Source: an uncultured Bacteroidia bacterium (lineage in GTDB: Bacteria; Bacteroidota; Bacteroidia; NS11-12g; UBA9320). From it: a DNA stretch of 64,000 bases. Shown here in pieces: positions 19,055 through 51,700 of this stretch (its first letter is position 1; every line of letters starts with the position of its first letter). A model generated the notes under the pieces. That model ran no database searches. It was not told the origin of the DNA and saw nothing but the letters and a program-made list of their open reading frames with translations. The translations under genes and the position numbers were made by a program. The stretch is taken from NCBI GenBank assembly GCA_905478335.1, contig CAJQIC010000017.1:1-64000 (forward strand), in the 5' to 3' direction.

Positions 19055-19073
19055 GTAAAACGATTATTTGATT

Positions 19074-22000
19074 ATGCGGATATCTATTACCATTACTCTT
19101 CTTGTCACTTTATGTTTATCAGCTCTGGGTCAACGTGCCGAAATCCGAGGATCGGTCTTGTCAAAAGATTCTTTAAAGCCAATTAAGAACCTCGACGTCG
19201 TCCTTTTCGAAGACAGTAAAATCAAATATGGACATACCACTGATTCCAATGGTGTGTTTGAAATATCCAACGTCTATCCTGGGAAATACGAGTTGTTCAT
19301 CTTTTTGTTCGATGATGTCGTTTACAAGACTAAAATCGACGTCAGCGCTGGAGAGACATTAACGCTATACGAATTAAAAATTGGAACAAAAGCCATGTCT
19401 AATGTCATTGAAGAAACCGTTGTTCGCAAACCGCGTGGGTCAGAGGACATTACCAAAATTGTACTGGGCGAAGGTGATCCTTTTGGGCCTGAACGCGGCG
19501 CGATTGGGAAAACGCAAATAAATGTAAAGACCAGAAATGGAACATTAGAAGTTGGTTTAGGCAGGCCAGGAGGAACGGTGAGTTTTATTAATTCAAATAT
19601 TGGAATGATTGGACCAGCACCACGCACGTTCGCTGGACTTTCAGGAGTAGAGGTGATTGACAAAGGAGTGCCAGCCAGATATGGGAATTTTACGGGAGGA
19701 GGGGTGAGATATCAAGTTAAAGAGATTGGTATAACGCCTGAAAACTATTATCAAGTTCAATCCACTTCTCCGTTTGATGGATATCATCACAACCTAGGTG
19801 TGATGTATTTTTCTAGAGCCTTGTTGACAAGATCACACTTTGTAAATGATCAAGAACTTAAGGCAATGAAATTGGGCATTTCGCTTCAAGCCAATTACAA
19901 GTTTCAAGCAGATCCTAACCCCAACAATGTTAGACCATATGTTTTGACAGATGCGTCTTCGGCAGTTATTGAAGCAGAGCCATTGGTATCTAGCGAGTTA
20001 ATTGGTGGGTATGTGCCATCTGCTACTTTTCTGGAAAACTCAGATTTAACTCAGGTTTCTGCGCGACCCAATGCAAGACGTCATGATTTTGGGGGGCGTA
20101 TGAAAATCAGTTATGCACCAAACGACCGATTCAAAATGGATTTGGTTAATAGTTTCGATTATACAAACCGTCGATTAAGCCAATCGAACTATGTGCCGAT
20201 GAATAGCAGCGAAAACCCCCTTCAAGAATACCGTTTTATTAATTCTCAACTCAAGTTAAGTCATAAGGTAATTGAGCCATACAACGGGAAAGGTGAATCG
20301 CAAAGGGATAGTCAACTGTTATCAAAGCTATCGTACGAGATTGATTTAAATTATCAGCAATCAAACTCAGAAGTTTCTAGTTACCGACATAAAGATAACT
20401 TTTTTAACTATGGTCATGTAGGAGCGTTTCACACAGTGAGAGTGCCGACCTACGATTATGTTGAGGAAGGCCAAACCAAATTTGTTGACGAAAATGGGGA
20501 TGAACGCCTATTGAAAAATTACATGGAATTAACCGGTTATAGAGATTCTCTTGTTGGTTTTCAACCCGGCGCATCAAATCCATCATTAGGCGAGTATACT
20601 TCGTTTTTTTATGATAAACTTGGTTCTAATGGCTCGTTCCAAGACCTTATTTCAATCGGAGGATTAAGCAATGGACAGAATATTCCATTATTATATTCAT
20701 TATACGCTAACCCGGGCACGGTGTACGGGAATTATTCAAAGTCATTTCAAAAAAGGTTTAGTGCCTCAGCAACTACCTATTTGAGTTTGCATCCGCACAA
20801 GAATCATAGAATTCGTCACGATATTGAATTTGGGATGAATTTCCAACAAGATATTAGCGGGAGTTACAACTTAAATGCAAGTCAACTATGGCAACTCATG
20901 CCATTGCTGGCGAATAGTCATCTTCAAAATGTTGACCGGGCTAATCCTATTTTTAAAACAGATTATAAAGGTAGGTTCACAGACACTATAACCTATCCGA
21001 CATTTGTAGACGCAGAGAGTCAAAAGACGTTTGATAAGAATTTACGTGACCATTTGGTTTCTTCAAACTATGTTGATGCCAATGGCAACGCGGTTACTGA
21101 AAATTCTTTTATCGACATAAATGCGATTGAACCACATGTGTTTCAAATTTCAATGTTTTCAGCTGATGAATTGCTCAATAACGGAAACCCTTATGTTTCT
21201 TATGCTGGCTACGACCATACCGGCAAACGAACCAACAAACGATATGGTTTGCAGCGGTTCTTAACAGACAAAGAAAATAGACCAATCGATGCGTTTGCGC
21301 CTATAAATGCGGCAGCCTGGCTGCAAGACAAACTGGTACTAAAATCATTAATTATCAGAGCAGGTATTCGTTTCGAACGTTACGATGGGAATCAATATGT
21401 ACTTAAAGACCCGTATTCGGTTTACCCAATCAAACAGGTAAGTGAGGTTGAAGCGATTAATGGGATTGTAATCGACCACCCAGAAAGCGTTAAAGACGAT
21501 TATGTGGTTTACGTAGATGACGCTAAAAACCCAAACAAAATTATTGGGTACAGAGATGGGAGTAATTGGTACGATCAATCTGGGAATCCAATCAGTGATC
21601 CGAATTTTCTTGCCAACCAATCTTCGTCAGGTCGAATTCAGCCAATGCTTGTAGATCCAGAAAACCAAGAACTTACGATTAACTCTTTTAAAAAGTTTGA
21701 GGCTCAGAATATTTTCTTACCAAGACTGTCCGTTTCTTTTCCGTTAAACACGTCTAGCTTGTTTTTTATGAGTTATGATAAGCTTGCTCAAAATCCATCA
21801 GCTGGCCAAACGTATCTTCCTTATACCTCGTATTATTATTTACAAAGTAATTTGAACGGTGTCTTACCTAATCCTGAATTAAAAGCCAGAGTGAAAACAG
21901 AATACAACATTGGATTTAGTCAGGCAATAGGGTTAAAGGCTGGAATTAAGGTATCTGCAGCGTATGCCAATATTGCGAACGATGTCAATCAAATAAGAAT

Positions 22001-22772
22001 CGAACAAGCCTACCCGTATTCATATACTTCTTACGGCAATGTCGATTTTTCAACGATTAAACGGTACATGGCAGAATACGATTATGTTGGTCGCCATTTG
22101 TCTATACAAGCAAGTTACGCGTTGCAATTTGCCGACGGTACAGGTTCAAATGCGAATTCGGCTGCAACACTGATACAAAGCGGGCAACCAAATTTGAGAA
22201 GCTTGTTTCCATTGGTGTACGATAACAGACATACGTTTAAATCTGGCGTTAGTTTTAGATTTGGTGGAGATTCAACAGTCCGTAATCGACTTAAATACAA
22301 GGGGCCTCAAATCGGGAAATACAAGCTATGTAAAGATGTTGTATTAAGTGCTTCAATGCAATCGATATCTGGAACACCATATACCGCTGTACAACGCGCA
22401 ATTTCGGAAGCTCAAGCCGCTAACGGTGTGGTGCAGCGAAGTCAAACAAAGGGCAATCCATTTGGAAGTAGAATGCCTTGGACGCATAATGTGGATCTCA
22501 ATATTCAGCGCGACTTCAATTGGGCTGGCAAAACAGTTTCTATCTATATGCTCGTAAACAACATTTTAAACACGAAGTTGATTGCAAATGTTTACAGTTA
22601 CACAGGTCAACCTGATGACGATGGATACCTTAATTCACCACATGGAATACAGGCAACTCAAAATCAAATTGATGCGGAAACCTTTGCAATGCTGTACAAA
22701 CTAAGAATGGATAACCCTGGAAATTTTGGAACACCACGTATGGTTAACATTGGGGCTAAGTTGAATTTTTGA
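19074..22772 (+). CDS. TonB-dependent receptor with carboxypeptidase-regulatory domain (1)
   Basis: A large outer-membrane receptor of about 1232 residues. From ATG 19074 there is a signal peptide (MRISITITLLVTLCLSALGQ), a CarboxypepD_reg-like beta-sandwich over about residues 22-105 (EIRGSVLSKDSLKPIKNLDV), a plug region, and a long barrel ending in PRMVNIGAKLNF with a terminal aromatic. It probably imports or secretes through a TonB-energised channel; the ligand is unknown, and no SusD partner is beside it. It is a paralogue of the receptor at 23931: both end with a GYTG-PDDDGYLNSP-like motif and share strings such as LLANSH and FADGTGSN. A TTG at 19068 is an alternative start. Confidence 0.88.
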   Translation: MRISITITLLVTLCLSALGQRAEIRGSVLSKDSLKPIKNLDVVLFEDSKIKYGHTTDSNGVFEISNVYPGKYELFIFLFDDVVYKTKIDVSAGETLTLYELKIGTKAMSNVIEETVVRKPRGSEDITKIVLGEGDPFGPERGAIGKTQINVKTRNGTLEVGLGRPGGTVSFINSNIGMIGPAPRTFAGLSGVEVIDKGVPARYGNFTGGGVRYQVKEIGITPENYYQVQSTSPFDGYHHNLGVMYFSRALLTRSHFVNDQELKAMKLGISLQANYKFQADPNPNNVRPYVLTDASSAVIEAEPLVSSELIGGYVPSATFLENSDLTQVSARPNARRHDFGGRMKISYAPNDRFKMDLVNSFDYTNRRLSQSNYVPMNSSENPLQEYRFINSQLKLSHKVIEPYNGKGESQRDSQLLSKLSYEIDLNYQQSNSEVSSYRHKDNFFNYGHVGAFHTVRVPTYDYVEEGQTKFVDENGDERLLKNYMELTGYRDSLVGFQPGASNPSLGEYTSFFYDKLGSNGSFQDLISIGGLSNGQNIPLLYSLYANPGTVYGNYSKSFQKRFSASATTYLSLHPHKNHRIRHDIEFGMNFQQDISGSYNLNASQLWQLMPLLANSHLQNVDRANPIFKTDYKGRFTDTITYPTFVDAESQKTFDKNLRDHLVSSNYVDANGNAVTENSFIDINAIEPHVFQISMFSADELLNNGNPYVSYAGYDHTGKRTNKRYGLQRFLTDKENRPIDAFAPINAAAWLQDKLVLKSLIIRAGIRFERYDGNQYVLKDPYSVYPIKQVSEVEAINGIVIDHPESVKDDYVVYVDDAKNPNKIIGYRDGSNWYDQSGNPISDPNFLANQSSSGRIQPMLVDPENQELTINSFKKFEAQNIFLPRLSVSFPLNTSSLFFMSYDKLAQNPSAGQTYLPYTSYYYLQSNLNGVLPNPELKARVKTEYNIGFSQAIGLKAGIKVSAAYANIANDVNQIRIEQAYPYSYTSYGNVDFSTIKRYMAEYDYVGRHLSIQASYALQFADGTGSNANSAATLIQSGQPNLRSLFPLVYDNRHTFKSGVSFRFGGDSTVRNRLKYKGPQIGKYKLCKDVVLSASMQSISGTPYTAVQRAISEAQAANGVVQRSQTKGNPFGSRMPWTHNVDLNIQRDFNWAGKTVSIYMLVNNILNTKLIANVYSYTGQPDDDGYLNSPHGIQATQNQIDAETFAMLYKLRMDNPGNFGTPRMVNIGAKLNF

Positions 22773-22855
22773 CAAATTCCGTTTCTCAATTTGTATTGGA
22801 CGGTGGTAAAAACGCCATTTTTGCAACCATTATTAAAGTTTAGATTTGAATCAAC

Positions 22856-23848
22856 GTGAAGTTTAAGTTAAATATCTTAATTGTAGATGACGTTCATAAC
22901 GAACTCATGAGACGCTTAGAACAAATGGGCATCGATTATACATATAAGCCTGAAATTACAGCAGAGGAAATTTCTGAAACGTTAGTAGCGTATAATGGAA
23001 TCGTTGTTAGAAGTAAGCTAAACGTAACAGCTGACTTTTTGAAGAAGCAACCTCAATTAAAATTTATTGCAAGAGCCGGTTCTGGTATGGACAATATTGA
23101 CCTTGACGAAGCAGAAAAACGCCATATTGTTTGCGTTAATGCGGGCGAAGCAAATGCCGACGCGGTTGGCGAACATGGGCTGGGTTTGTTGCTGTCGCTA
23201 AAGCACAACATAGTGAAAAGTAATCGTGAACTAGTCCAAAATACGTGGGATCGAGAAGGAAATAGAGGCCAAGAAATTGGAAATAAAACCATTGGAATAA
23301 TTGGGTTCGGAAATACCGGAAGTGCATTTGCACGCAAACTGCAAGGATTTGGGTGCCGTGTCATTGCCTACGATAAATATAAAAACGGCTTTTCAAATCA
23401 ATACATAGAGGAAGTGTCTTTGTCGTATTTGGAATCAGAAGCCGATATTATTTCTTTTCATATTCCATTGACTTCAGAAACATCACAATGGATCAGATCA
23501 GCTTGGATATCTCGTTTAAGAAATCAAGTGACATTGATGAATCTTTCTCGAGGTGGAATTATGAAAATGACTGATGTCATTCAAGGATTGAAAAGTGGAA
23601 GAATATCGGGTTTTGCAACTGATGTTTTGGAGAATGAAAGATTGAAGTCATTTAATGACGAAGAACGTCAGGCTTTTGAGTGGTTAAATGACCAAGACAA
23701 TGTGATTCTGACTCCACATGTGGCTGGCTGGTCTGAGGAGTCCTATGTAAAGATATCGGTGGTTTTAGCGGATAAAATTGAGTCTCACTTAAAAGGTGAG
23801 AAAATCAAGACTGAAACCAGTAATTATAATAGGCAAATTGTCGGATAA
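22856..23848 (+). CDS. D-2-hydroxyacid dehydrogenase (phosphoglycerate dehydrogenase-like)
   Basis: An NAD-dependent dehydrogenase of 330 residues. The Rossmann loop is IGIIGFGNTGSAFARKL (about 146-162). Catalytic residues are Arg232 in NLSRGGI, Glu259 in FATDVLENE and His288 in LTPHVAGWS. It lacks the ACT/ASB domains of long phosphoglycerate dehydrogenases, so 3-phosphoglycerate is a guess and other 2-hydroxyacids are possible. It starts with GTG; no ATG lies before the conserved N-terminal strand. It lies between two paralogous TonB receptors on the same strand but has spacers on both sides. Confidence 0.87.
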   Translation: MKFKLNILIVDDVHNELMRRLEQMGIDYTYKPEITAEEISETLVAYNGIVVRSKLNVTADFLKKQPQLKFIARAGSGMDNIDLDEAEKRHIVCVNAGEANADAVGEHGLGLLLSLKHNIVKSNRELVQNTWDREGNRGQEIGNKTIGIIGFGNTGSAFARKLQGFGCRVIAYDKYKNGFSNQYIEEVSLSYLESEADIISFHIPLTSETSQWIRSAWISRLRNQVTLMNLSRGGIMKMTDVIQGLKSGRISGFATDVLENERLKSFNDEERQAFEWLNDQDNVILTPHVAGWSEESYVKISVVLADKIESHLKGEKIKTETSNYNRQIVG

Positions 23849-23857
23849 ATTGTTTTT

Positions 23858-23889
23858 TTTGCAGTTTAATAGAAAGTTAAGTAGCTTTC
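23858..23889 (+). promoter_or_regulatory. Promoter of the second TonB receptor
   Basis: TTTG (23858-23861) and TAGCTTTC (23882-23889, one mismatch from TAnnTTTG) are separated by 20 nt, the preferred Bacteroidota spacing. The box is 41 nt before the ATG at 23931. Confidence 0.55.
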
Positions 23890-23930
23890 GCCGATTATAG
23901 TAAAAGTATAAAAGAATAAACAAATTCAAT

Positions 23931-26900
23931 ATGAGTAAATATCTCTACCTAACAGTTATCCTAGTTGTCTCCAGTGTGTATGCTTTTGGACAAGCAAACT
24001 TTGGGGAAATTAGAGGTAAAATCATAGACGGCAAGACTAAAAAAGCACTTGATTATGCTGAGATTGTTGTGAAGAAAGACGGTATCGCTAAAGGTGGTGG
24101 TCTTTCGGATGATCTTGGTAATTATACTGTCAAGCCTCTTGAGCCAGGAGAATATGTAGTTGAAGTGACTTATGTCGGTTACAACACACGTCAATACTCG
24201 GGAGTTGTTGTTACCGGTAACAACATCTCTTACGTAAACGTTGAACTGTCTCCATCTAAAGGAGGTGAGAAGTTAAAAACGGTTACCGTAACGAGATATA
24301 AAACAAACCTTATTGAGCCAGATAAAAACCAAAAGTCGTTTAGTGACAAAGACCTAGTGAAGATGGCTGTTCGAAGTGCAGGGGCATTAGCCGCAACTTC
24401 TTCAGCAGCAAATACTACCGCTAGTGGTGGAGTAAGTTTCCTTGGTCAACGTACGGATGCTACAAGAGTTTTTATTGACGGTGTTCCAGTAATTGGAGAC
24501 GCGGGTATCCCACAGGGTGCTCAAAGTCAGGTAGATATTATTCAGTCAGGAGTGCCTGCACAATATGGAGATTTTACGGGTGGAGCGATTAACTATACGA
24601 CCAAAGGTCCTTCTCGTTATGTACGAAAGTCTTTTGAGGTGATTAGTTCTTCTCTATTTGACCCATATCACTATAACTATGCACAAGGATTCATGTCTGG
24701 TCCGCTTTGGATTAAAAACAAAGGTGGCGGAGACAAAGAATATGTTGCATTAGGATTTCAACTTTCAGGTGACCTAAACTATACACAAGATCCATCTCCA
24801 TTATACGGAGGCGTATATGTTGTTAAGGATGATGTTCTTGATGAATTAGAGCAGAATCCATTAGCTCCTAACCCACAGGGTAGTGGTTTTGTGCCAGCCT
24901 CATCGTTTTTAACTAACGACGATATTGTTTTAGAGAAAGCACGACGAAATGTGGACTACTTAAGAGGGTCTTTACAGGCTAAATTGGAATACCAGCCGAA
25001 CAAACACTCGACAGTAACTTTATTTGGATCAGGTAGTTACAGAAACTCAAATTCATACAGTAGAGCTCATTATCTATTAAACTATAAAAACAATGCAGAG
25101 TCTGTAAATCAAACCTACAGAACGTACTTGAAATTTACGCAACGTTTGAGAAATGCGAATGCAGACGATAAAGACAAAGACGCTTCTAAGTCTTTAATTA
25201 CAGACGCTTTTTATACCGTTAGATTAGATTACCAGACATCAATCGGGTCTTCAAAAAGCGCCCTACACGGTGACAATATTTTTGATTATGGATATGTTGG
25301 AAAGTTTGACCATTACAGAGCTCCGGTATATCGCTATAATCAAAACGAAAAGAAGTTCATTGATCAAAACGGTGACACAGTTGCACGAAGAGGATATTTT
25401 GAACTAGCAGGTTACCAAGATACATTGTTGACTTTCGAAGCTTCAGACAAAAATGTTGAAAGAGCTAGATACACAACAAACTTCTTTAATAATGCTGAAG
25501 ACTTAGACAGAACGATTTTTGCAGACGGTCAAGTTTTTGAAGGTCTTGGAGTCTTAAATGGCCGGTCACTTCAAAACACATATTCTTTGTTCCTGAACCC
25601 AGGGACAAATGCAGCGGGATATTCAAAAAGCCAAGCGGAAAGAATCAGTGCTTACGCTATGGGTGAGGCAAGTTTAAATCTTAAGAATAAGCATGACTTG
25701 CAATTCGGTATGACGTATGAGCAAAACTTGTACAGTGGCTACTCTTTAAGTGCAAACAGTCTATGGTTATTAATGCCATTGTTGGCTAACTCACATATTT
25801 TGGAATTAGACAACTTTGAAACTGGTGATTACACAGTTGGCGGAATTCATAGTTATGACGAAACGGGTCGTTTCTTAGATACTATTACCTATAACACGTT
25901 TGTTGATTCTGACGCACAAAAATCTTTTGACAAAAACCTTCGTGCCAAACTAATGGCTGAGGGTCGAACTGATGTGCATGGTAATCTAATTACTGAAACT
26001 TCGTTTATTGATATCAATTCATTATCACCTGAGGATTTTTCAATTGATATGTTCAGTGCTGATGACTTATGGAACAATGGTAATAGCTATGTGTCTTATT
26101 ACGGTTATGACCACTTGGGTAACCGCGATAGAAACCGACCTAGTTTGGCGGAGTTTTTATATGATGAAGACAATAGAAGAGTTGGATCATTTGCACCTAT
26201 ATACAGTGCAGCGTGGTTACAAGATAAGTTCGCGTTTAAAGATCTAATTTTCAGATTAGGTGTTCGTATTGAGAGATATGACGCAAACCAGTTTGTGCTT
26301 GCTGATCCATATTCACTTTACCCTGTTAAAACGGCAGGCGAAGTGTCAAGTATTCAAGGCCGTGACATTGCTCATCCAAGTAGTATTGGTGATGATTATG
26401 CGGTATATGTAAACAACTCAGAATCTCCATCAGAAATATTAGGTTACCGGAAAGACAATACATGGTTTGACGCAGACGGTGTTGAAATTTCTACTCCTGA
26501 TGTTATTGCAAACGAAACTGGTGGACAGGTTCAGCCTTTCTTAGTTGATGGTCAAAACCAAGACATCGTTAAAGAGTCGTTTAAAGATTACGAACCACAA
26601 GTTAACGTGTTACCACGTGTTTGGTTCTCTTTCCCAATTAACTCTGAAGCGCAATTTTTTGCTAACTATGATGTGATGGCACAGCGTCCTACTAACGGGG
26701 CTACTTTTACGCCAATTAATCAGTATTATTTCTTGGAAGCATCACAGTCAAGAACGATTGCGAATTCAAATATGAAGCCAAGAATTCGTACGAATTACGA
26801 ATTAGGGTTTAAGCAAAAATTGTCTGAAAATTCAGCGTTAAGCTTAATCGCTCAATATGCGGAAACTAGAAACGATTTTGGGTTGGTAAGATTGTACCAA

Positions 26901-27680
26901 GCATACCCTGTAACATACAATACGTATTCAAACATCGATTTCAGTACAACAAAGTCGTTTAGAGCTGAGTACGAATTAAGAGGCGAAGGGCGCGTTTCAT
27001 TATCTGCTAACTACGCTTTATTGTTTGCTGATGGAACGGGAAGTAATATCAATTCTCAAAGTGCACTTATTGCAGCGAATCAACCTAACCTAAGATCGCT
27101 TTATCCTTTAGATGTTGATGTAAGACATAAAATTGTTGGAATTTTTGATTACCGTTTTAAAGGTAAAAATGATTACACCGGACCAGTTTGGTTTGGTAAA
27201 AAAGTTTTCACAAATGCTGGTGCAAACTTTATCATCTCTGGTAAGTCTGGTGCTCCATACTCGAAGCAAGGGATTGCTATTTCATCTGCACAATCTGATC
27301 TTGGTCGGGTACAAAGATCCTTTTTGGATGGCAACCCATTTGGTAGTCGATTACCATGGCAATTCAAGGTTGACATGAATGCTTCCAAAACATTTGCGAT
27401 CAAGAAAAAGAACCAAAAGAAATTTAGACCAGATTCTAAACAATACACGGTATTCCTTTGGGTGCAAAACTTGTTGAACAACAGAATTATTGACCGTGTA
27501 TATGGTTACACAGGTTTGCCTAATGATGATGGATACTTGAACTCACCACAAGGACAACAATACATCCAAGAACAAATCAACCAACAGTCGTTCATGGATC
27601 TATACAATATAAAAATGAATAACCCATCGAACTTTGCTATTCCTAGATTGGCAAGACTTGGATTTAGAATGACATTCTAG
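23931..27680 (+). CDS. TonB-dependent receptor with carboxypeptidase-regulatory domain (2)
   Basis: A receptor of 1249 residues. It has a signal peptide (KYLYLTVILVVSSVYAFGQ), a CarboxypepD_reg domain (about residues 25-105, EIRGKIIDGKTKKALDYAEI), and a plug region with VFIDGVPVIGDAGIPQ and AQYGDFTGGAINYTTKG. The barrel ends in PRLARLGFRMTF with a terminal Phe. It is clearly paralogous to the receptor at 19074, with the same order of motifs throughout. Only 24 nt separate it from the T9SS-type surface protein gene, and the PorV-family gene follows, so these three probably form one transcript. The ligand is unknown. Confidence 0.9.
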   Translation: MSKYLYLTVILVVSSVYAFGQANFGEIRGKIIDGKTKKALDYAEIVVKKDGIAKGGGLSDDLGNYTVKPLEPGEYVVEVTYVGYNTRQYSGVVVTGNNISYVNVELSPSKGGEKLKTVTVTRYKTNLIEPDKNQKSFSDKDLVKMAVRSAGALAATSSAANTTASGGVSFLGQRTDATRVFIDGVPVIGDAGIPQGAQSQVDIIQSGVPAQYGDFTGGAINYTTKGPSRYVRKSFEVISSSLFDPYHYNYAQGFMSGPLWIKNKGGGDKEYVALGFQLSGDLNYTQDPSPLYGGVYVVKDDVLDELEQNPLAPNPQGSGFVPASSFLTNDDIVLEKARRNVDYLRGSLQAKLEYQPNKHSTVTLFGSGSYRNSNSYSRAHYLLNYKNNAESVNQTYRTYLKFTQRLRNANADDKDKDASKSLITDAFYTVRLDYQTSIGSSKSALHGDNIFDYGYVGKFDHYRAPVYRYNQNEKKFIDQNGDTVARRGYFELAGYQDTLLTFEASDKNVERARYTTNFFNNAEDLDRTIFADGQVFEGLGVLNGRSLQNTYSLFLNPGTNAAGYSKSQAERISAYAMGEASLNLKNKHDLQFGMTYEQNLYSGYSLSANSLWLLMPLLANSHILELDNFETGDYTVGGIHSYDETGRFLDTITYNTFVDSDAQKSFDKNLRAKLMAEGRTDVHGNLITETSFIDINSLSPEDFSIDMFSADDLWNNGNSYVSYYGYDHLGNRDRNRPSLAEFLYDEDNRRVGSFAPIYSAAWLQDKFAFKDLIFRLGVRIERYDANQFVLADPYSLYPVKTAGEVSSIQGRDIAHPSSIGDDYAVYVNNSESPSEILGYRKDNTWFDADGVEISTPDVIANETGGQVQPFLVDGQNQDIVKESFKDYEPQVNVLPRVWFSFPINSEAQFFANYDVMAQRPTNGATFTPINQYYFLEASQSRTIANSNMKPRIRTNYELGFKQKLSENSALSLIAQYAETRNDFGLVRLYQAYPVTYNTYSNIDFSTTKSFRAEYELRGEGRVSLSANYALLFADGTGSNINSQSALIAANQPNLRSLYPLDVDVRHKIVGIFDYRFKGKNDYTGPVWFGKKVFTNAGANFIISGKSGAPYSKQGIAISSAQSDLGRVQRSFLDGNPFGSRLPWQFKVDMNASKTFAIKKKNQKKFRPDSKQYTVFLWVQNLLNNRIIDRVYGYTGLPNDDGYLNSPQGQQYIQEQINQQSFMDLYNIKMNNPSNFAIPRLARLGFRMTF

Positions 27681-27704
27681 TAGAAATAGATAAGAGAAAA
27701 AGAT

Positions 27705-30700
27705 ATGAGAAATATAAGAAAGATAGGATTTGTTGCTGTTGTGTGTGCGACTGCTCTTTTCGCATCAGCGAAGGAAAATGTAAACGTACAAACACCAAAA
27801 TCCGATGCTAGTAAAGCAGGATCGCAACAAATAAAAAATAAGTTAATGAAGTTTGCCTCTGACTGTGAACCAGCATCGGCGCAAGCAGATTTAGATATTA
27901 ATAATGTACGTACCCGTATTCTTAACGGCGGTGATATGTGGTGGGATTTGAGCAATGCGCGATACGAAATTCCTAAACTTACCGACCTTAATGCGGTTAG
28001 AAAGAATTCCCTTTTTGCCGGAGCCATTTGGATAGGCGGTGAGGATGAAGGTGTACTTAAATTAGCAGCAATGACTTACCGTCAAGGTGGATCTGATTTT
28101 TGGCCTGGGCCACTTGATAAAGTGACGGGAACGACAAACAGTACGCGTTGTGAGGCCTATGACGAAATTTATAAGGTGTCTCGTGAAGAAATTGAGGACC
28201 ACAGAGAAGCATGGGAAAATGGAACGTTAACTTCCTTAAGTGATGGTGTAAAGAATTGGCCTGGTAACGGTAGAGGAGCAAATGAACCAGACATGCTCGC
28301 ACCATTTTTCGATCAAGATAGTAATGGTGTTTATGAACCGTTTAACGGAGACTACCCTGTACTTCAGACTGAATGTCGCGGCGTTCCTGTAGCACGCGAA
28401 AAAAACACACCAGCTGACCAACCAGACCAAATGCTTTGGTTCGTTTATAACGATAGAGGGAATATTCACTCTGAAACACAAGGTCAAGCGCAGGGATTGG
28501 AATTACAAACCACTGCTTTTGCTTATGCAACGAATGACGAAATTAATAACATGACCTTCTATACGACTCGAATTATCAATAGAGGTTCAAACTTGAGTAA
28601 TACATATTTTGGTCAATGGGTGGATCCTGATTTAGGTAACTACTCTGATGATTATGTAGGTTGTGATGTAGGACTAAGCTTAGGGTTTTGTTATAACGGA
28701 GACGACAACGATGAAGGTATTCTAGGATATGGTTTGAATCCGCCATCAATTGGAGTTGATTTCTTTGAAGGACCTAAAAAGGATACAACAATCGACGGGG
28801 TTGATACCTTGTTCGAATTAGGAATGTCGAAGTTCGTTTACTACGATAATGATTTTACGAATTTTGGAAATCCACAAACACCAATACATTATTACAATTA
28901 CTTAAGAGGTCTTTGGAAAAACGGTGACTGTTTAACAAGAGACGAAGCTAACGGAAGGACTGGAAGTGCTTGTACAGATTATATATTCCCAGGTAAATCT
29001 GATCCGAATGATGCAACTGATTGGTCTGAAACCACCTCTGGAAATACACCAGCAGATAGAAGATTTCTTCAAACCTCTGGACCTTTCACGCTTAAACAAG
29101 GTGCCGTTAACAAGATTACGGTTGGCGTTGTTTGGGCTAAAGCAAGTTCTGGTGGTGCAACCGGTTCACTTGACTTACTAAAAGCAAGTAGTAGAAAAGC
29201 ACAAGAATTATTTGATAACTGTTTTGATATTCTTGACGGTCCTGATGCACCAATCGTTGAAGCACAAGAGTTGAGTAATGAGGTAGTCCTATTGTTTAAC
29301 GATACCAAAAGAATTGAAGCCTACAAAGAAGTAACGATTAGTGACGGAAAACCTGTTACCTACGTTTTCCAAGGATACAGAGTTTATCAACTTAAAAATG
29401 CATCTGTTGGAACAGGTGATTTGGAAGATATTGACAAGGCAAGAGAAGTTTTTGCTTGTGATTTGGACGACAGTATCACAAGATTGGTTAACCAACCTTT
29501 TGATGAAGCGTTAGGTCAACCTTTACCTAAGTTAATGATCGATGGCAAAAACACGGGCTTAGTTCACTCTGTATCTATTACAGAAGATGTTTTTGCTACG
29601 GGTAGTAATAAAACACTTGTTAACCATAAGCCGTATTACTTTATGGTTGTGTCCTATGCGGCATTGCCTGGTCATAGAGAGTTAGAGTATCTAGCTGGTA
29701 GAAAGATTCAGGAGTTTAGTGTAATTCCACATAATCCAGAGCCTGAAGAAGGTGGTTTAAGGGTAAATGGTAATTATGGTGATGGGCCAAAACTTGTTCG
29801 ACTTGAAGGACGTGGTAATGGTGGAATCGAACTAGAGTTGACCGAAGCGTCGATAGCGGAAATATTAGCTAACGGAAGAACACAATTCCCAGAATACAAG
29901 ATTGGACAAGGACCGGTTAACATTAAGGTTGTAGATCCATTAAAAGTGCCTAAAGGAAACTTTGAGTTAATACTTAGAGAAGATGCAAGTGCGACGTCTC
30001 CAATTGGTAGATTGAGCGGTTTGGTTGCTGATGCTACGAATTGGATGTTAATCAATACGGAATCAAATGATACCATTTTCTCTGATTATACCATTGACTA
30101 TGAAAATGAGCAGCTAATTACAGCAATAAGCACAGAAAACGAATTGAATGATTGGGGACTTTCTGTAACCATCACACAAGTTGTTGGTCCTGGTAATAGT
30201 GATGTTGATCAAAGCAATGGATTGATTGGCTGGAGTGTTGCTTGGGAAGACAATAGTAAGCAGTGGTTGACGGCAATACCTGATATCGATAATGGAGCAT
30301 GGTTTAACTGGATACGTGCAGGTAGAGAAGGTTCTACAGTTGCTACTCCAGATTACTCTGAGCACGACTTTAGAGATGAAAATGGTGCTGCGATTGACAG
30401 ATTTGAAGTGTACGAAAGAATATGGGACGGACGAATTGCGCCTTACCGATTGGCTTCGAAGAATATCCCATCTAACGCAAGTCCACAGCCAGCAAGAAAT
30501 TATACGTTGGTGCAGGGTGTTGCATATCAAGGAACACAGCCTCCATCACACTGGTATAACCTTGACAACTTAAGCAGTATTGATTTGGTATTCACCAAAG
30601 ACGAATCAAAATGGTCTCAGTGTCTTGTACTAGAACTTGGAGAAGAAGAAAACCTTAACCAAGGTGGTGCATTGAAATTTGAAGTGAGAAAACACAATTC

Positions 30701-31601
30701 TGTTAATAAAGATGGAAGCGAAAATGCTGCTGAACAAGGTAGAACTTGGTTCCCAGGTTATGCAATCAACGTGGAAACTGGAGAGCGTCTTAACATTGTT
30801 TTAGGTGAGGATTCTTACCAAGGACTTAATAATGGACGAGACTTAAAATGGAATCCAACAGATCAAGGTGGAAGCTATAGTTCTGGATATGCAGGATTTG
30901 GTGGAAGACATTACATCTATATTATGGATACGGATAGTAGCTACCTACAGTCGTTATATCCTTCAGGTCCAGCATACGATGGATGTAAAACATACATGGA
31001 CAGAGTTGCAGGATTGACAGGAGATAATTATTTCCGTGAGTTAAACCAACAGGTATTGTATCATGCGATGTGGGTTATGCCATCTTACCTAGCCAATGGA
31101 TATGAGATGGAAGTGAATGATAACGGTATGCCAGTTCCACCTACGGAAGTGACTTTCAAGTTGCGCGTTAAAAAGCCATACCAGTATTATGTAACTGCTG
31201 AAAATCAAAACAGAAACAACCCAAGATATTCATTCGACACTGAAGCGGTATTCGCGGAGAGAAGCGCTGAATTTGGTAAAGAGGCGATGGAAACAATCAG
31301 ACTTGTTCCTAACCCATATTTCGCTTACTCCGAGTATGAGAATAACCCCGTAGAGAACAAGGTGAAAATTACAAACCTTCCTGAAACGTGTAAGATTTCA
31401 ATTTATACGGTAGACGGCAGTCTAGTTCGTCGAATTGTTAAGGATGACAAGTCAACAGAAGTGACTTGGGACTTAAAGAATAATGCTAAAGTACCTATCG
31501 CCAGTGGTACTTACTTAATCCATGTAGATGGTGGTGAGTTGGGCGAAAAAGTCATCAAATGGATGGGTATAATGAGAGAGTTAGACTTAGACTCGTTCTA
31601 A
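27705..31601 (+). CDS. Large secreted T9SS-type surface protein
   Basis: A secreted protein of 1298 residues with a signal peptide (about 1-22, KIGFVAVVCATALFASA). I recognise no enzymatic domain. The N-terminal region includes ARYEIPKLTDLN, SLFAGAIWIGG and an acidic stretch with FFDQDSNGVYEP, a likely calcium loop. The C-terminal 90 residues begin IRLVPNPYFAYSEYENNP and contain VKITNLPETCKISIYTVDG and GTYLIHVDG, the fold of a T9SS sorting domain, but the end (MRELDLDSF) differs from the usual type A terminus. Its placement between a TonB receptor and a PorV-family gene supports T9SS export or outer-surface assembly. Confidence 0.75.
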   Translation: MRNIRKIGFVAVVCATALFASAKENVNVQTPKSDASKAGSQQIKNKLMKFASDCEPASAQADLDINNVRTRILNGGDMWWDLSNARYEIPKLTDLNAVRKNSLFAGAIWIGGEDEGVLKLAAMTYRQGGSDFWPGPLDKVTGTTNSTRCEAYDEIYKVSREEIEDHREAWENGTLTSLSDGVKNWPGNGRGANEPDMLAPFFDQDSNGVYEPFNGDYPVLQTECRGVPVAREKNTPADQPDQMLWFVYNDRGNIHSETQGQAQGLELQTTAFAYATNDEINNMTFYTTRIINRGSNLSNTYFGQWVDPDLGNYSDDYVGCDVGLSLGFCYNGDDNDEGILGYGLNPPSIGVDFFEGPKKDTTIDGVDTLFELGMSKFVYYDNDFTNFGNPQTPIHYYNYLRGLWKNGDCLTRDEANGRTGSACTDYIFPGKSDPNDATDWSETTSGNTPADRRFLQTSGPFTLKQGAVNKITVGVVWAKASSGGATGSLDLLKASSRKAQELFDNCFDILDGPDAPIVEAQELSNEVVLLFNDTKRIEAYKEVTISDGKPVTYVFQGYRVYQLKNASVGTGDLEDIDKAREVFACDLDDSITRLVNQPFDEALGQPLPKLMIDGKNTGLVHSVSITEDVFATGSNKTLVNHKPYYFMVVSYAALPGHRELEYLAGRKIQEFSVIPHNPEPEEGGLRVNGNYGDGPKLVRLEGRGNGGIELELTEASIAEILANGRTQFPEYKIGQGPVNIKVVDPLKVPKGNFELILREDASATSPIGRLSGLVADATNWMLINTESNDTIFSDYTIDYENEQLITAISTENELNDWGLSVTITQVVGPGNSDVDQSNGLIGWSVAWEDNSKQWLTAIPDIDNGAWFNWIRAGREGSTVATPDYSEHDFRDENGAAIDRFEVYERIWDGRIAPYRLASKNIPSNASPQPARNYTLVQGVAYQGTQPPSHWYNLDNLSSIDLVFTKDESKWSQCLVLELGEEENLNQGGALKFEVRKHNSVNKDGSENAAEQGRTWFPGYAINVETGERLNIVLGEDSYQGLNNGRDLKWNPTDQGGSYSSGYAGFGGRHYIYIMDTDSSYLQSLYPSGPAYDGCKTYMDRVAGLTGDNYFRELNQQVLYHAMWVMPSYLANGYEMEVNDNGMPVPPTEVTFKLRVKKPYQYYVTAENQNRNNPRYSFDTEAVFAERSAEFGKEAMETIRLVPNPYFAYSEYENNPVENKVKITNLPETCKISIYTVDGSLVRRIVKDDKSTEVTWDLKNNAKVPIASGTYLIHVDGGELGEKVIKWMGIMRELDLDSF

Positions 31602-31637
31602 GGATTGTAAACCAATATTGAAATAGATTAAAAGAAA

Positions 31638-32717
31638 ATGATTAAGAAAATATATAGTGTAATCCTGATATCGAGTTTGTCTCTGGCTGCAATGGCTGGA
31701 AATCCAGATCGAATAGGACAATCTGGAGCAAGTCAATTGATGATTAACCCTTGGGCTATGTCAAGTGGTATGGGTTGGGCAGGTCAATCGAATGTTCGAG
31801 GCTTAGAAGCATCTTTCTTTAACATGGGCGGCTTAGCACATGCTAAACGTACTGAGTTAGGATTTTCTAACACAAATTGGTTAGTGGGTTCTGGAGTCCA
31901 AATAAACGCGTTTGGGTTTGCTCAGTCGTTAGGGGGAGAAGGTGTTTTAGCTTTAACCGTTATGACAATGGACCTCGGAGAAATTGAAGTTACTACGGTA
32001 GAGCAACCTGATGGTGGTTTGGGTACAATTAATCCTCAAAACACAAACATTGGTTTAGGTTATGCTAAGAAGTTCACAAAAACAATATCTGGTGGCGTAC
32101 TTGTAAGAGTGCATTCTGAAGCTATACCGAATGCTAGTGTTCAAGGAATAGCGATAGACGCTGGTATTCAATACACGGAGTCAAGCGATAAGTCAGACAA
32201 GCTTAAAAAGGATGACATCAAGTTTGGAATTAGTATGAAAAATGTTGGGCCAGATGCTAGTTATAGTGGAGACGGTGTAACGTTTAAAGCGACGAATCCG
32301 AACAACGACGTACAGCAGTCATTCTTATTTAGAACGGCTGGTTTTGGTTTGCCTACATTAATCAACATTGGTGCATCTTATGATTTTAGACTTGATGCGA
32401 CCAAAGAAACATACGACAAGCGGTTAACAGCGGCGCTGAACTTTACTTCTAATTCATACACACGGAATCAAGTGACAGCTGGGTTAGAGTTCGGGTATAA
32501 AGAAATATTTAAACTGAGAGGCGGTTTTGCCTACGAAGACGGTATTTTTAACGCTGATGAAAGAACGTCTGCCCTTACGGGATTAACAGGAGGTTTTTCA
32601 ATTGATTTGCCTATGAGCAAAAACAACGACAACAAGTTTGCAGTTGATTATTCTTACCGAGCAAGTAACCCTTTTGGCGGTTCACATGGTATTGGTGTAA
32701 GAATATTGGTTGATTAA
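31638..32717 (+). CDS. PorV/PorQ-family outer-membrane protein
   Basis: A protein of 359 residues with a signal peptide (about 1-20, VILISSLSLAAMA). After it comes SGASQLMINPWAMSSGMGWA and SFFNMGGLAHAKRTELGFS, the start typical of the PorV/PorQ family of 14-strand FadL-like barrels. In the T9SS, PorV shuttles cargo from the translocon to the attachment complex. This copy, directly after a cargo-like gene, may be a dedicated paralogue and not the housekeeping PorV; that is inference. A strong terminator follows. Confidence 0.83.
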   Translation: MIKKIYSVILISSLSLAAMAGNPDRIGQSGASQLMINPWAMSSGMGWAGQSNVRGLEASFFNMGGLAHAKRTELGFSNTNWLVGSGVQINAFGFAQSLGGEGVLALTVMTMDLGEIEVTTVEQPDGGLGTINPQNTNIGLGYAKKFTKTISGGVLVRVHSEAIPNASVQGIAIDAGIQYTESSDKSDKLKKDDIKFGISMKNVGPDASYSGDGVTFKATNPNNDVQQSFLFRTAGFGLPTLINIGASYDFRLDATKETYDKRLTAALNFTSNSYTRNQVTAGLEFGYKEIFKLRGGFAYEDGIFNADERTSALTGLTGGFSIDLPMSKNNDNKFAVDYSYRASNPFGGSHGIGVRILVD

Positions 32718-32770: not shown

Positions 32771-32774
32771 CGGA

Positions 32775-32815
32775 ACATTGCATTGGCCTTTGCCATTGCA
32801 ATGTTTCTTTTTTTA
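32775..32815 (+). terminator. Strong hairpin terminator in the greA leader
   Basis: ACATTGCATTGGC (32775-32787) and GCCATTGCAATGT (32792-32804) form a 13-bp stem with one mismatch and a 4-nt loop, followed by TTCTTTTTTT. It may end the PorV transcript, 58 nt after its stop. It also lies after a promoter-like box and before greA, so it could be an attenuator. Confidence 0.8.
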
Positions 32816-45747: not shown

Positions 45748-48700
45748 ATGAAAAAATTTTACTCATTTTTATTGGCTATTGGCGTAATTATTTTGTTAAT
45801 TCCATCGGAGGTTTCTGCTCAGACGTATACGTATGATCAGTCCAAATCGTCCCTAAATGTAGGAAACCCTGGTACTCTTCGCGGTACTGCTTATGATTAC
45901 ACTACGACTGGGGGTACAATTATCCATCGAGGTAATTCAGGTCCTAATGGATCTACGGGTAGCTACAACTCAACCAATTACTGGTCTGTAGCACGCGCAA
46001 TCCCATTTCCTTTCAAGTTTTATGGCGCGACGGTTGATTCGTTTTGTGTCTCCAAAAACGGTTTGTTGACGTTTTCAACAAACGTTGCGGGAACGGCAGT
46101 GAACACAGCATTGAATTCAAATTCGGCTTTACCAAATACGAATTTGCCCGATTCAACTATTGCGTATTTCTGGGAATCCATGGGTACAAACATTTCTTCG
46201 AGGGATTACATTTATTCGATTCCTTATGGATCAACAGGGAATAGGCAATTATGGATTTTGAATTATTCATGGAAACTTGGTAATTCAAGCTATGCATACT
46301 TTGCAGTTGTATTAGATGAAAAGACAAACGATATCTACGTTGTAGATATGAACTATTTTTACAGCTCAAGCGCACTTACCATGACGGTCGGAACTCAATT
46401 GTCCTCTACGTCAGCAGTGCAAGTTAATTCTGGACTTAACTCTTCTGCAGGTTCGCCAAATATAATTTTCGGTAGTGGAGGCTCTGTGCATAGCAATAAT
46501 GAGTATTACATATTTGAAGAAAAACTACTAGTTACAGATGATATGTCGGTCGTGGAAATGGATAACCCTAGTGGAGCCATATGTAGCACATCCGATTCTA
46601 TTAAAGTAAAAGTGAAAAATGAGGGAACCAATGCGGTGACCGATTTCGATGTTGAATGGTCTGTTAATGGGACTAGTCAATCCACATATTCATATAGTGG
46701 CTCTCTTGCTTCGGGTGCATCAACAACAGTAAATCTCGGCAGTTATACCTATGGAACATCAACATCAACGTTCAATTTTCAATTTAGAACGGATGATCCT
46801 AATGGAAATACAGATAAAAATCTAGCCAATGATACCGTGAAAAAAACGCTCAAGAAAGGGCTCTCCGGTAGTTATACTGTTGGAACGTCTTCCAGTAATT
46901 ATGCAACCATGGCGGCAGCAATGGCTGATTTAAAAGCTTCTGGTGTATGCGGTCCCGTAACAATGAATATTGCAAAAGGCACATATACAGGTCAGGTTGC
47001 ATTAGAAGGTGATATCTCAGGAGCGTCGTCAGCAAATACCATAACTTTTAAATCAGCTACGGGTAAACAAGCAGATGTAATTTTTGCTTACTCATCTACT
47101 GGAACATCTAAATTAACAACATTCCTATTAAAGAATACGTCCTATATAATTATGCGTGACGTGACATTTGAGGCGAAAGGTACATCTTACGGCTGGCCTA
47201 CCCAGGTTTGGTCTGCGAGTAACATTTCGTTCATTAATTGTCACTTTAAGTGTAAATACATAGGAACGTCATCATATAATAACAACTTAGTAATCAATGG
47301 TAGCGCGACAAGTTATTCAACTGGCTCGTTAAACCATGACATTACAGTAGATAGCTGTACGTTTACAAACGGAGGTTATGCTGCTTGTTCTAGCTACGGA
47401 TCAGGAACAGCAAGTTTTTCTAATGGTTTAACCTTTACGAACAATACACTTATAAACTCTGGATATTACGGATTAAGAATATACTATCAAGGTGCACCTC
47501 AAATTTCTAATAATCATATCACAATGAGATCAGGTGCTTGGTGTGGAATTTACATGTACTACGTAAAATCAACCTCGACAGTACCAGTAAGAATTAATCG
47601 AAACCAGGTGTATAAATCTAGTTACTATGGCATTTATATGTCTTCATGTGATAACTCATCGTCACAACAAGGTGAATTATATAACAACATTATCGGTAAC
47701 TTTTCGGGCGCTCCAACTTATTATGGTATTTATAACTTTAGCAGTGATTACTGGAGAGTATATCACAATACAGTGGACGTGCGCGCTTCTAGTTCTTCAA
47801 CTATTAGAGCTTGTTACTACACTTCCGTAAGTTATTCGGATATTAGAAACAATATCTTTAGTATTCAAAGTTCAGCTTCGTCATCAAGCCACTATGCACT
47901 TTATAATACGAGTTCGCCAAGTACAAATAGAAAGTGTGACCACAATGTATATTACAATCCAAATGGTACATATTTAATTTATTCTGGAGGATCCAGAACA
48001 GCGTCTGTTCTAAATAGCTATAGTACTGCTGGGGATGGAAATTCTATTAACAAAATGCCTCCATTTAAAAGTGCTTCAGATGCACATTTAAGTGATGGTT
48101 GTTTTGATAAGGTCGATGCCTTAATGGGGGTGTCTGAAGACATTGATGGAGATAGCAGGGATCCAGTTTTCCCTCATCCAGGTGCGGATGAAGTAGTATT
48201 GTCGTCTAACGATGTTGGAGTTGTGTCTATTGAATCACCTTCAGGGACTGTATCTTCAGGAACACAAACGGTTAGAGTAATTGTTAGAAACTACGGAAGC
48301 AATTCAGTTTCTGGATACAATGTAAGCTACAAAGTAGCCGGTGGTTCAAGTGTAACACAAGCGGTGTCCGGTACACTGGCAAGCTGTTCGAATGATACCA
48401 TTACGTTTACAACGACTTTTAGTCATACAGTTGGGTGTACCAATCTCAATGCTTGGACGTCAGCACCGAATACAACAACAGATGGGAATGTGTCTAATGA
48501 TACTGCTACTTCAAGTTTTGGTGTAGCCATGTCTGGTACGTTCACGGTTGGTGGAACTAGCGGAGATTTTAGCACATTTGGAGAAGCGGTTGACGCCCTT
48601 AACTGTGCTGGAATATCAGGAGCAGTGGTATTTAATGTAGTTTCTGGTACGTATACGGAACAAGTTAACCTTGGCAGTTATACAGGTAGTTCATCAACGA

Positions 48701-51700
48701 ATACAATTACCTTCCAATCAGCTAGTTCAAATACTACAAAACCAGTTTTACGATTTGCAACCACATCAGCTACAAACAATGGTGTCCTGAATTTTAGTGG
48801 TTCGTCAAACATAATTTTCAAAGGGATTCATGTTAAACAAACAGCGACAACTTCAACTTCAATGAATTATTGTGCAGTGGTAACCATGGCTGGAAGCAAC
48901 AGTTCATTAACTATAGAAGATTGTAAGTTAGAAGGAATAACACCAACTTATACGTATTATAATTATTCATCAATCATTTATGATGGAACGGGTACAGGTA
49001 ATATGAGTAACGATATCATTATTAAGAATAATGAGTTGATCAAGGGATCATATTCTATTTATACTTTTGGTGGTAATACTGGTACACTTCAAAGAGGATG
49101 GGTGATTACAGGGAATACGATTTCAGGATTTGTAAATTACTCTTTGTATTGCTACTATTTAACTGGTTTAGAAATTTCGAACAATACGATCACAAGCTCA
49201 CTATCCACTGGTATCTATGCCAGATATTGTGATGGAGCCATGAAGATTACCAATAACAGAATCACTGGAGTAACTTCAGGATATGGTATCTATATGTATT
49301 ATTGTGATGCCACCAGCGGCTCACCTGCACTGGTTGCCAACAATACAATTCAAGTTGGAAACGGCTACTCGTATGTGAGGGGCATGTATGTGCAATACTG
49401 CAAGTATCAAAAGATTTTGCACAACACGGTTGTTAACAATACGACTTACGCTTCAACTACTTATGGTGCGGGTTATTTCTATTTTACTTCGTCCTATCCA
49501 GGTAATGAATTAAAGAACAACATTTTTGTTGCGAATAACGGAGGCTACTCAGTATACTTATACTATAGTGGTACAAATCATTATTTTGCTGCACTTGACT
49601 ATAACATTTACTACAGTACAGCAACTGGAAGTCATATTTACGCTGGAGGAAATTACTCGTCTGTAGCTGCATATAAATCAGCAAAGTCTGGAAAAGATCC
49701 TAACAGTTTTGAAGAGAAACCACCTTTTAAATCAAGTTCTGACTTGCATTTAGCCGATGGTTGTTTTACCAAAGTTCCTTCTGTTTCAGATGTAACCACA
49801 GACATGGATGGTGCAACACGTAACACCACATCTACGCACCCAGGTGCCGATGAGGTAGAAACTGGGGCATTAGACGCTGGGGTTACCGAAATCCTTTCGC
49901 CAAAAGGAATTGTTAGTTCAGGTAGTCAGACAGTAGAAGTAGTTGTGAAAAACTTTGGAACTACAACAATTTCAACATTGACGGTGTCATACACAGTTGG
50001 CACGACAACAAATTCTCAAACTTTTGGTGTGAGTTTAGCTGGATGTACAGCTGATACATTGACATTTACAACAGGATACAATCATACTGGGGGATGTGCG
50101 AGCATATCTGCTAAAACAAGCGATCCGAATGCTTTAACCGATGCAGTGCCTTCAAATGACGAAGGACCATCACAATCGTTTGGCGTATCTGTATCAGGTA
50201 CCTTTACTGTAGGTGGAACAAGTGGCGATTTCTCAAGCTTAAGTGACGCCATTGAAAATTTACTTTGTGCAGGCATTAGCGGTCCAGTAACCTTAAATGT
50301 GGTTAGTGGTACTTACAACGAACGTGTTTCGTTACTGCCAATTTCTGGAATGTCTAGTACCAATACGGTTACTATTCAATCACACCCTTCAAACACGTCG
50401 ATGCCAATTGTACAAAGTGACAATGGAGGTTTAACAAACAACGTGATTTTGTTCAATGGATCATCCTACTTTACAATTGATGGTATTCATTTTAAGGCAA
50501 ACAATGCCACTTATAATCGTGTGGTTGAAATGCAAGGTTCAAACTCAAACATTACCATTAAAAACTGTAAGCTGGAGTCTCAAACTGTCTTCACAACAAG
50601 TAGCAATAGTTATATAATTTACGATCGGACTGGATCAGCAAACATGTCCAACAATATCAAAATTATGAACAATACGCTAACGGGCGGTTCATATGCTATA
50701 TATAACTTTGGTGGAGGTACTTCTTCTACTGACCTACAAGACGGTTGGGTGATATCAGGGAACACAGTCACTGGTTTCGCTTATATGGGTGTTTATAATT
50801 TGTACAACAAAAATTTAATCTTAACTAATAACACCATAACTACAAAGTCTACCTATTCCACAAACTTATACGGAACCTATTTTAGGTATTGTGATGGAGC
50901 CATGGTAATTTCAGGAAACCACGTAGATATTGATCGTGGAGGTTATGGAATGTATATGTATTACTGTGATGCAACGTCGACTTCGCCTGCAGTCATTAGT
51001 AATAATTACCTCAGAATTGGTAATGGTACTTCATGGAGTAGAGGAGTATTTGCTTATTACGGTTCTTACCAGAATTGGTATAATAATACCTTCCGCTCAT
51101 TTAGCTCTAGTTCGTATTCTTCATCGAACTCATATGCTACCATGCGCCTCTATTATACAAGCAATACATCAATATTCAGAAACAACATCGTTTCAAATTA
51201 TGGTGGTGGTTATGCGCTATACTTTTACAACCCGACTTATGTGAAATCGGATTATAACAACATACATAGTACAAGCACAGGGTCACATATATACGCAGCT
51301 GGAACATACTCTAGCTTAAGTGCATACCAAACAGCTAAAGGGACTGACTTAAATTCTTTTGACAAGGATCCTAAGTTTAGCAGTTCTCCTGTTTACCAGC
51401 CAAATCAAGAAGAATTCTTTAACGCGGGTGATTCAACTGGTTTAACTGTTGATATTGACAGCAACTCAAGACCTGCTGCGATGTCTACAATTGGTGCGTT
51501 GGAAATCAACCCAGACTTAAACATAATAAGTGTTGCAGGTGATTCTGCTTGTGGAACTATGAATTCCGCTTCGACGGTGACCGTAACATTCAAAAACGAA
51601 GGAGACATCATACAACAAATGGCTAGTTTCAACGTATCACTTGATACTTTTGCCGCTGTTCCAGTAACAATTACTGGGCCGTTTGCAAAAGGTATGACGT

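Follow-up and report, generated by a model that had tools for sequence, protein, structure and literature searches.

Whether adjacent genes for a TonB-dependent receptor (TBDT), a T9SS cargo and a PorV-family barrel encode one dedicated surface complex is the question raised by this locus, which lies in a window of 64,000 nucleotides (the whole stretch of DNA that was analysed) from an uncultured Bacteroidia bacterium. The initial annotation had proposed such a complex, consisting of an export shuttle, its cargo and an energised channel. In the reading that we consider somewhat probable, the PorV-family protein (PORV) is a cognate shuttle-anchor that would hold the uncleaved cargo beside its own TBDT, in a SusCD-like arrangement assembled by the T9SS. 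The features on which the argument draws are as follows.

19068–22772, + strand: TBDT1, a paralogue of TBDT2, 5' of the dehydrogenase gene; present in members of the window's genus and in part of its family
22856–23848, + strand: D-isomer 2-hydroxyacid dehydrogenase (PGDH-like), immediately 5' of the triad in members of the order and of several further families
23931–27680, + strand: TBDT2, TonB-dependent receptor (CarboxypepD_reg, plug, barrel), 1249 aa
27705–31601, + strand: T9SS cargo, 1298 aa
27852–29774, + strand: N-domain of the cargo, predicted beta-rich, about residues 50–690 (AF2 model and alignment)
31278–31568, + strand: C-terminal sorting domain (CTD) of the cargo, Ig-like, PorZ/type-A-like subtype, about residues 1192–1288
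31572–31598, + strand: conserved C-terminal tail of the cargo, MRELDLDSF, past the Ig fold (low-confidence prediction)
31638–32717, + strand: PORV, PorV/PorQ-family outer-membrane barrel, 359 aa
32772–32814, + strand: intrinsic terminator 3' of PORV, a hairpin followed by a T tract

The three genes of the triad share one strand and are separated by gaps of 24 and 36 nt according to their ORF coordinates, as had been claimed, and the strong terminator proposed after PORV is borne out by a hairpin at 32772–32807 followed by a T tract (dG −21.8 kcal/mol, z −6.3). The promoter placed in front of the triad did not hold up, with neither a sigma-70-like site nor a Bacteroidota-type TAnnTTTG motif found in 23849–23930. 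A TAnnTTTG-type motif occurs at 22841, ahead of the dehydrogenase gene, and the cluster reaches further 5' on the same strand, through the dehydrogenase gene and then TBDT1. TBDT1 shares 38% identity with TBDT2 and, outside the genus of the window, occurs in only a few relatives. The dehydrogenase gene was also flagged in 27 of 62 triads from named genome records, a few of them through weak matches.

Only the CarboxypepD_reg domains of the window's TBDT2 passed Pfam cut-offs, Plug reaching 11.5 bits, and the TBDT of L102, a near-copy of TBDT2, fell below both the Plug and the barrel cut-offs. Its identification as a TonB-dependent receptor is upheld by homologues in the same position, which carry plug and barrel above the Pfam cut-offs: among six TBDTs of other genomes that were scanned, five passed the Plug cut-off and four of these five also that of the TonB_dep_Rec barrel. 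Consistent with the earlier remark that no SusD is present, the window's cluster contained no SusD or SusC family match. The TBDTs of relatives scored 60–72 bits on the SusC model TIGR04056, so far under its cut-off of 368 that a SusC identity was ruled out.

PORV is a PorV/PorQ homologue, as first assigned, scoring 125.6 bits on the PorV_fam model NF033709 (cut-off 90). Membership in this common family would also suit a spare copy of the general PorV, an explanation that we regard as highly improbable and that is already contradicted by its score of only 67.5 on the PorV equivalog NF033710 (cut-off 250) and by its separate position in the tree, where PORV branches apart from both PorV and PorQ (one reference row, L171_PorVtop, has a very long branch, is probably a wrong ORF and was disregarded). 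On the PorQ equivalog NF033711 it reached 45.6 against a cut-off of 220. The true PorV (461 bits) adjoins PorU elsewhere in the same genome (C27), PorQ lies at C45, and SprA, PorU and a PorV2 equivalog are encoded as well. PORV is thus not the general shuttle, because the genome has its own PorV, PorQ, PorV2, PorU and SprA; the alternative first envisaged, a general PorV with no second copy, gives way to a genome with distinct PorV, PorQ and PorV2 equivalogs. The fifth PorV-family gene of this genome (L010:7309–8319, C7) matched the family model, with no named equivalog above cut-off.

The cargo was originally described as having an atypical T9SS-type C-terminus, a description that we can now refine to a distinct CTD subtype, nearest to the retained CTD of PorZ, plus a conserved tail ending in F or Y. 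Residues 1214–1284 match the type A model TIGR04183 at 22.3 bits (cut-off 23), and in a genome-wide listing of type A CTDs the domain stands at 27.9 bits, close to the bottom of about 100 matches over cut-off. The PorZ equivalog NF052228 gave 28.7 against a cut-off of 260, aligned over the CTD only. A type B cargo was rejected, as neither the type B CTD model TIGR04131 nor the barrel model TIGR03519 matched any window protein. The window also encodes an ordinary T9SS cargo, a 3822-aa PKD-domain protein at 45748–57216 with a type A CTD (PF18962, 47 bits). In the AF2 model of the triad CTD (pLDDT 85.7, pTM 0.80), the domain folds well, in contrast to the tail (pLDDT 57). The fold is Ig-like (Foldseek PorZ E 1.3e-6; RemZ CTD TMt 0.73), and the closest solved CTDs in sequence-profile and fold searches are those of PorZ, PorU and RemZ. 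The CTDs of PorZ and PorU remain uncleaved (PMC10202324).

No triad scored below 31.6 bits on a profile of the triad CTD (median 144), whereas 30 ordinary type A CTDs from the window's genome stayed at or below 21; this gap is partly built in, the triad scores including the sequences from which the profile was made. A fairer test is provided by 16 divergent paralogues that had no part in profile building, from two genomes of another class, G359 and G324; these paralogues scored 53.8–98.3. The terminal F or Y occurs in 124 of 140 triad cargos versus 1 of 30 ordinary type A CTDs, and triad cargos run about 10 residues longer past the CTD, the ordinary ones of this genome having a median of 18 residues after the GxY motif. 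The divergent paralogues possess the triad CTD subtype and show the F/Y tail in only 1 of 16 cases, so the tail is non-essential to the class as a whole. A C-terminal F acting as an ordinary outer-membrane barrel signal was dismissed, since a soluble Ig domain followed by the tail forms the end of the cargo.

We show that the triad is an old, conserved unit across most of the phylum. The cargo was found in 58 of 58 searched genomes of the order, the window's own included, and PORV lies directly beside it in nearly all of them, the exceptions being seen, on reading by eye, at contig ends. The full triad was present in 54 of 60 genomic contexts retrieved from within the order, the class and other classes, and three more were cut by contig ends. 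Across named genome records, TBDT, cargo and PORV occurred together in 62 of 80 loci, or 62 of 72 where both flanks were available; the record titles include Bacteroidales, Flavobacteriales, Crocinitomicaceae, Cryomorphaceae, Saprospiraceae and Sphingobacteriaceae, mostly metagenome-assembled. In 295 genomes drawn evenly from the class (E 1e-50), 229 had cargo and PORV, 13 cargo only, 2 PORV only and 51 neither (cargo in 242 overall), counts that are not independent events because the genomes are related to one another. Families f3–f6, f10, f11, f13 and f14 include genomes without the triad. Orphan cargos made up 8 of the 80 named loci, and 7 of these 8 genomes hold a cargo-PORV pair elsewhere. 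For 51 cargo-PORV pairs, picked as sharing a contig, the median gap was 43 nt including the stop codon. This conservation is far beyond chance, and the worry that the three families might rarely be adjacent in other genomes has been allayed, as they are neighbours in most cargo-holding genomes. In our judgement it is almost certain that they form a conserved cognate unit.

Paralogous operons allow the linkage to be followed within genomes. PorV-family copies outside the class number up to 29 per genome, and in G359 and G324, 17 of 20 sampled copies adjoin a triad-type cargo, and 16 of these 17 belong to a full triad; the remaining three comprise PorV, one PorQ-like copy and one divergent pair. 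Mantel comparisons over 45 triads gave 0.77 for PORV and CTD, 0.88 for PORV and TBDT, and 0.88 for TBDT and the cargo N-domain, and in 5 of 7 G324 triads all four components point to one and the same nearest triad of G359. Between-triad distances therefore agree across components, indicating that triads are inherited as units, although the co-inheritance of operon genes alone is no proof of contact. Accordingly, one could suppose that co-transcription serves regulation or joint inheritance, with a functional pair of cargo and PORV only and a receptor that does not contact the cargo. Cargo-PORV pairs detected with no TBDT alongside (L284, L204) fit that account, as does the PGDH gene, which is likewise conserved in the cluster in one order. 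We nonetheless think it unlikely, given the adjoining TBDT in most named loci with both flanks and its co-inheritance with each paralogous triad, whereas PGDH is limited to some lineages.

The same paralogues show that PORV linkage follows the CTD subtype and not the N-domain. None of the six N-domain paralogues whose CTD is ordinary had a PORV within the fetched 12–14 kb, and only L333 had a TBDT-like ORF there, a distant one about 1.2 kb off on the opposite strand. L329:5751–7295 is a short N-domain paralogue with an ordinary CTD, relatives across the order and no adjoining PORV or TBDT. Where strongly divergent N-domains carry the triad CTD, PORV is present. At L204:2238–14698 of G359, a tandem cargo array (one copy seemingly split into two ORFs) stands beside one PORV; its C-terminal parts are 97–99.6% identical, while whole genes or N-parts go down to 58–84%, an identity for which gene conversion could be an alternative cause. 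Judging from these sequence patterns, PORV probably reads the C-terminus of the cargo.

In a competing view, the cargo behaves like any other type A substrate, with export by the general PorV and cleavage by PorU, and PORV is a FadL-type channel or scaffold for the TBDT. PorV is itself a FadL homologue (PMC12578637), and the CTD, with its weak type A match (22–28 bits), could be handled by the general PorV instead. Still, we consider this view improbable: it does not account for a PORV linkage that goes with the CTD subtype and not with the N-domain, and the PORV profile is far nearer to PorV (PDB 6h3i, E 1.6e-17) than to the FadL-type TbuX and TodX (E 0.018 or worse). Furthermore, about 100 type A CTD matches above cut-off face only five PorV-family barrels above cut-off in this genome, so ordinary type A cargos are not each partnered in this way.

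As for the cargo body, Pfam and NCBIfam scans returned no domain upstream of the CTD, and a profile of the N-terminal half found no relative among solved structures. The Asp-rich motif DPDLGNYSDDYVGCD (residues 307–321; 28623–28667) has Asp residues invariant in 28 aligned cargos, a possible metal site. The AF2 model of the N-domain is beta-rich (pLDDT 86, pTM 0.84), and its Foldseek match to the GH94/GH116 beta-supersandwich is weak (TM about 0.2–0.27), which may be taken as a lead towards glycans and no more.

In the cognate shuttle-anchor reading, Sec would bring the cargo into the periplasm and the common SprA translocon would carry it over the outer membrane. The PORV of the operon, and not the general PorV, would then collect the CTD, a distinct type-A-like subtype with an additional tail, and would hold on to it in uncleaved form, in the way that PorQ retains the CTD of PorZ. 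That a cognate PorV-like barrel shields a CTD from cleavage is a hypothesis already made for PorZ/PorQ (PMC10202324). We judge retention of the CTD to be slightly more plausible than its loss; the cargo would thereby stay on the cell surface next to the TBDT of the same operon. Its beta-rich domain might capture or process a ligand that the TBDT would import, a function suggested by the presence of the TBDT and by the weak fold match. On whether receptor and cargo form an uptake complex, our own judgement is evenly balanced.

Several known systems resemble this arrangement in part. In Flavobacterium johnsoniae, type B CTD cargos have a cognate PorP/SprF shuttle and orphan type B cargos share one shuttle (PMC12618676), and the type B CTD is probably uncleaved (PMC10202324). 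A barrel shuttle gene after the cargo and the occurrence of orphan cargos are common to both, whereas the triad has a type-A-like Ig domain as CTD, a PorV-family shuttle and a TBDT. The nearest CTD in both sequence and fold is that of PorZ, which is retained and bound to a PorV/PorQ-family barrel, PorQ (PMC10202324); however, the cargo body bears no relation to PorZ, and PORV is distinct from PorQ, which the genome encodes separately. SusC/SusD (RagA/RagB) similarly combines a CarboxypepD_reg TBDT with a surface protein in an operon that is multi-copy in some genomes, but the partner here is a T9SS cargo instead of a SusD lipoprotein, and a PorV-type barrel is added. With the general PorV/type A pathway, the triad shares the barrel family and the Ig-like CTD fold (RemZ CTD TM 0.73); it differs in having a dedicated barrel in the cargo operon, as opposed to one for about 100 cargos, and an extra CTD tail. 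A literature search found no description of the triad, a weak negative with preprints and most subscription papers outside its scope.

Taken further, the triad may tentatively be seen as representing a further class of T9SS sorting signal, with a dedicated family of cognate PorV-type shuttles, that assembles TonB-energised uptake complexes parallel to SusCD. All type A CTDs are held to be recognised by a single PorV shuttle (PMC12618676); if our reading is true, cognate shuttling extends beyond type B, to a type-A-like CTD paired with a PorV paralogue and a receptor of its own, and the T9SS gains a role in building uptake machinery. A large cargo family with no Pfam or NCBIfam domain would receive a first testable function, as would a large portion of the PorV family that has no name, and the reason why PorZ-type CTDs escape cleavage would become testable on many natural pairs. 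Cargo and shuttle occur in about four fifths of the sampled class genomes, and the PorV family numbers at least 20 copies in certain genomes from other parts of the phylum. Here, our results suggest a widespread, unstudied route to building surface machines.
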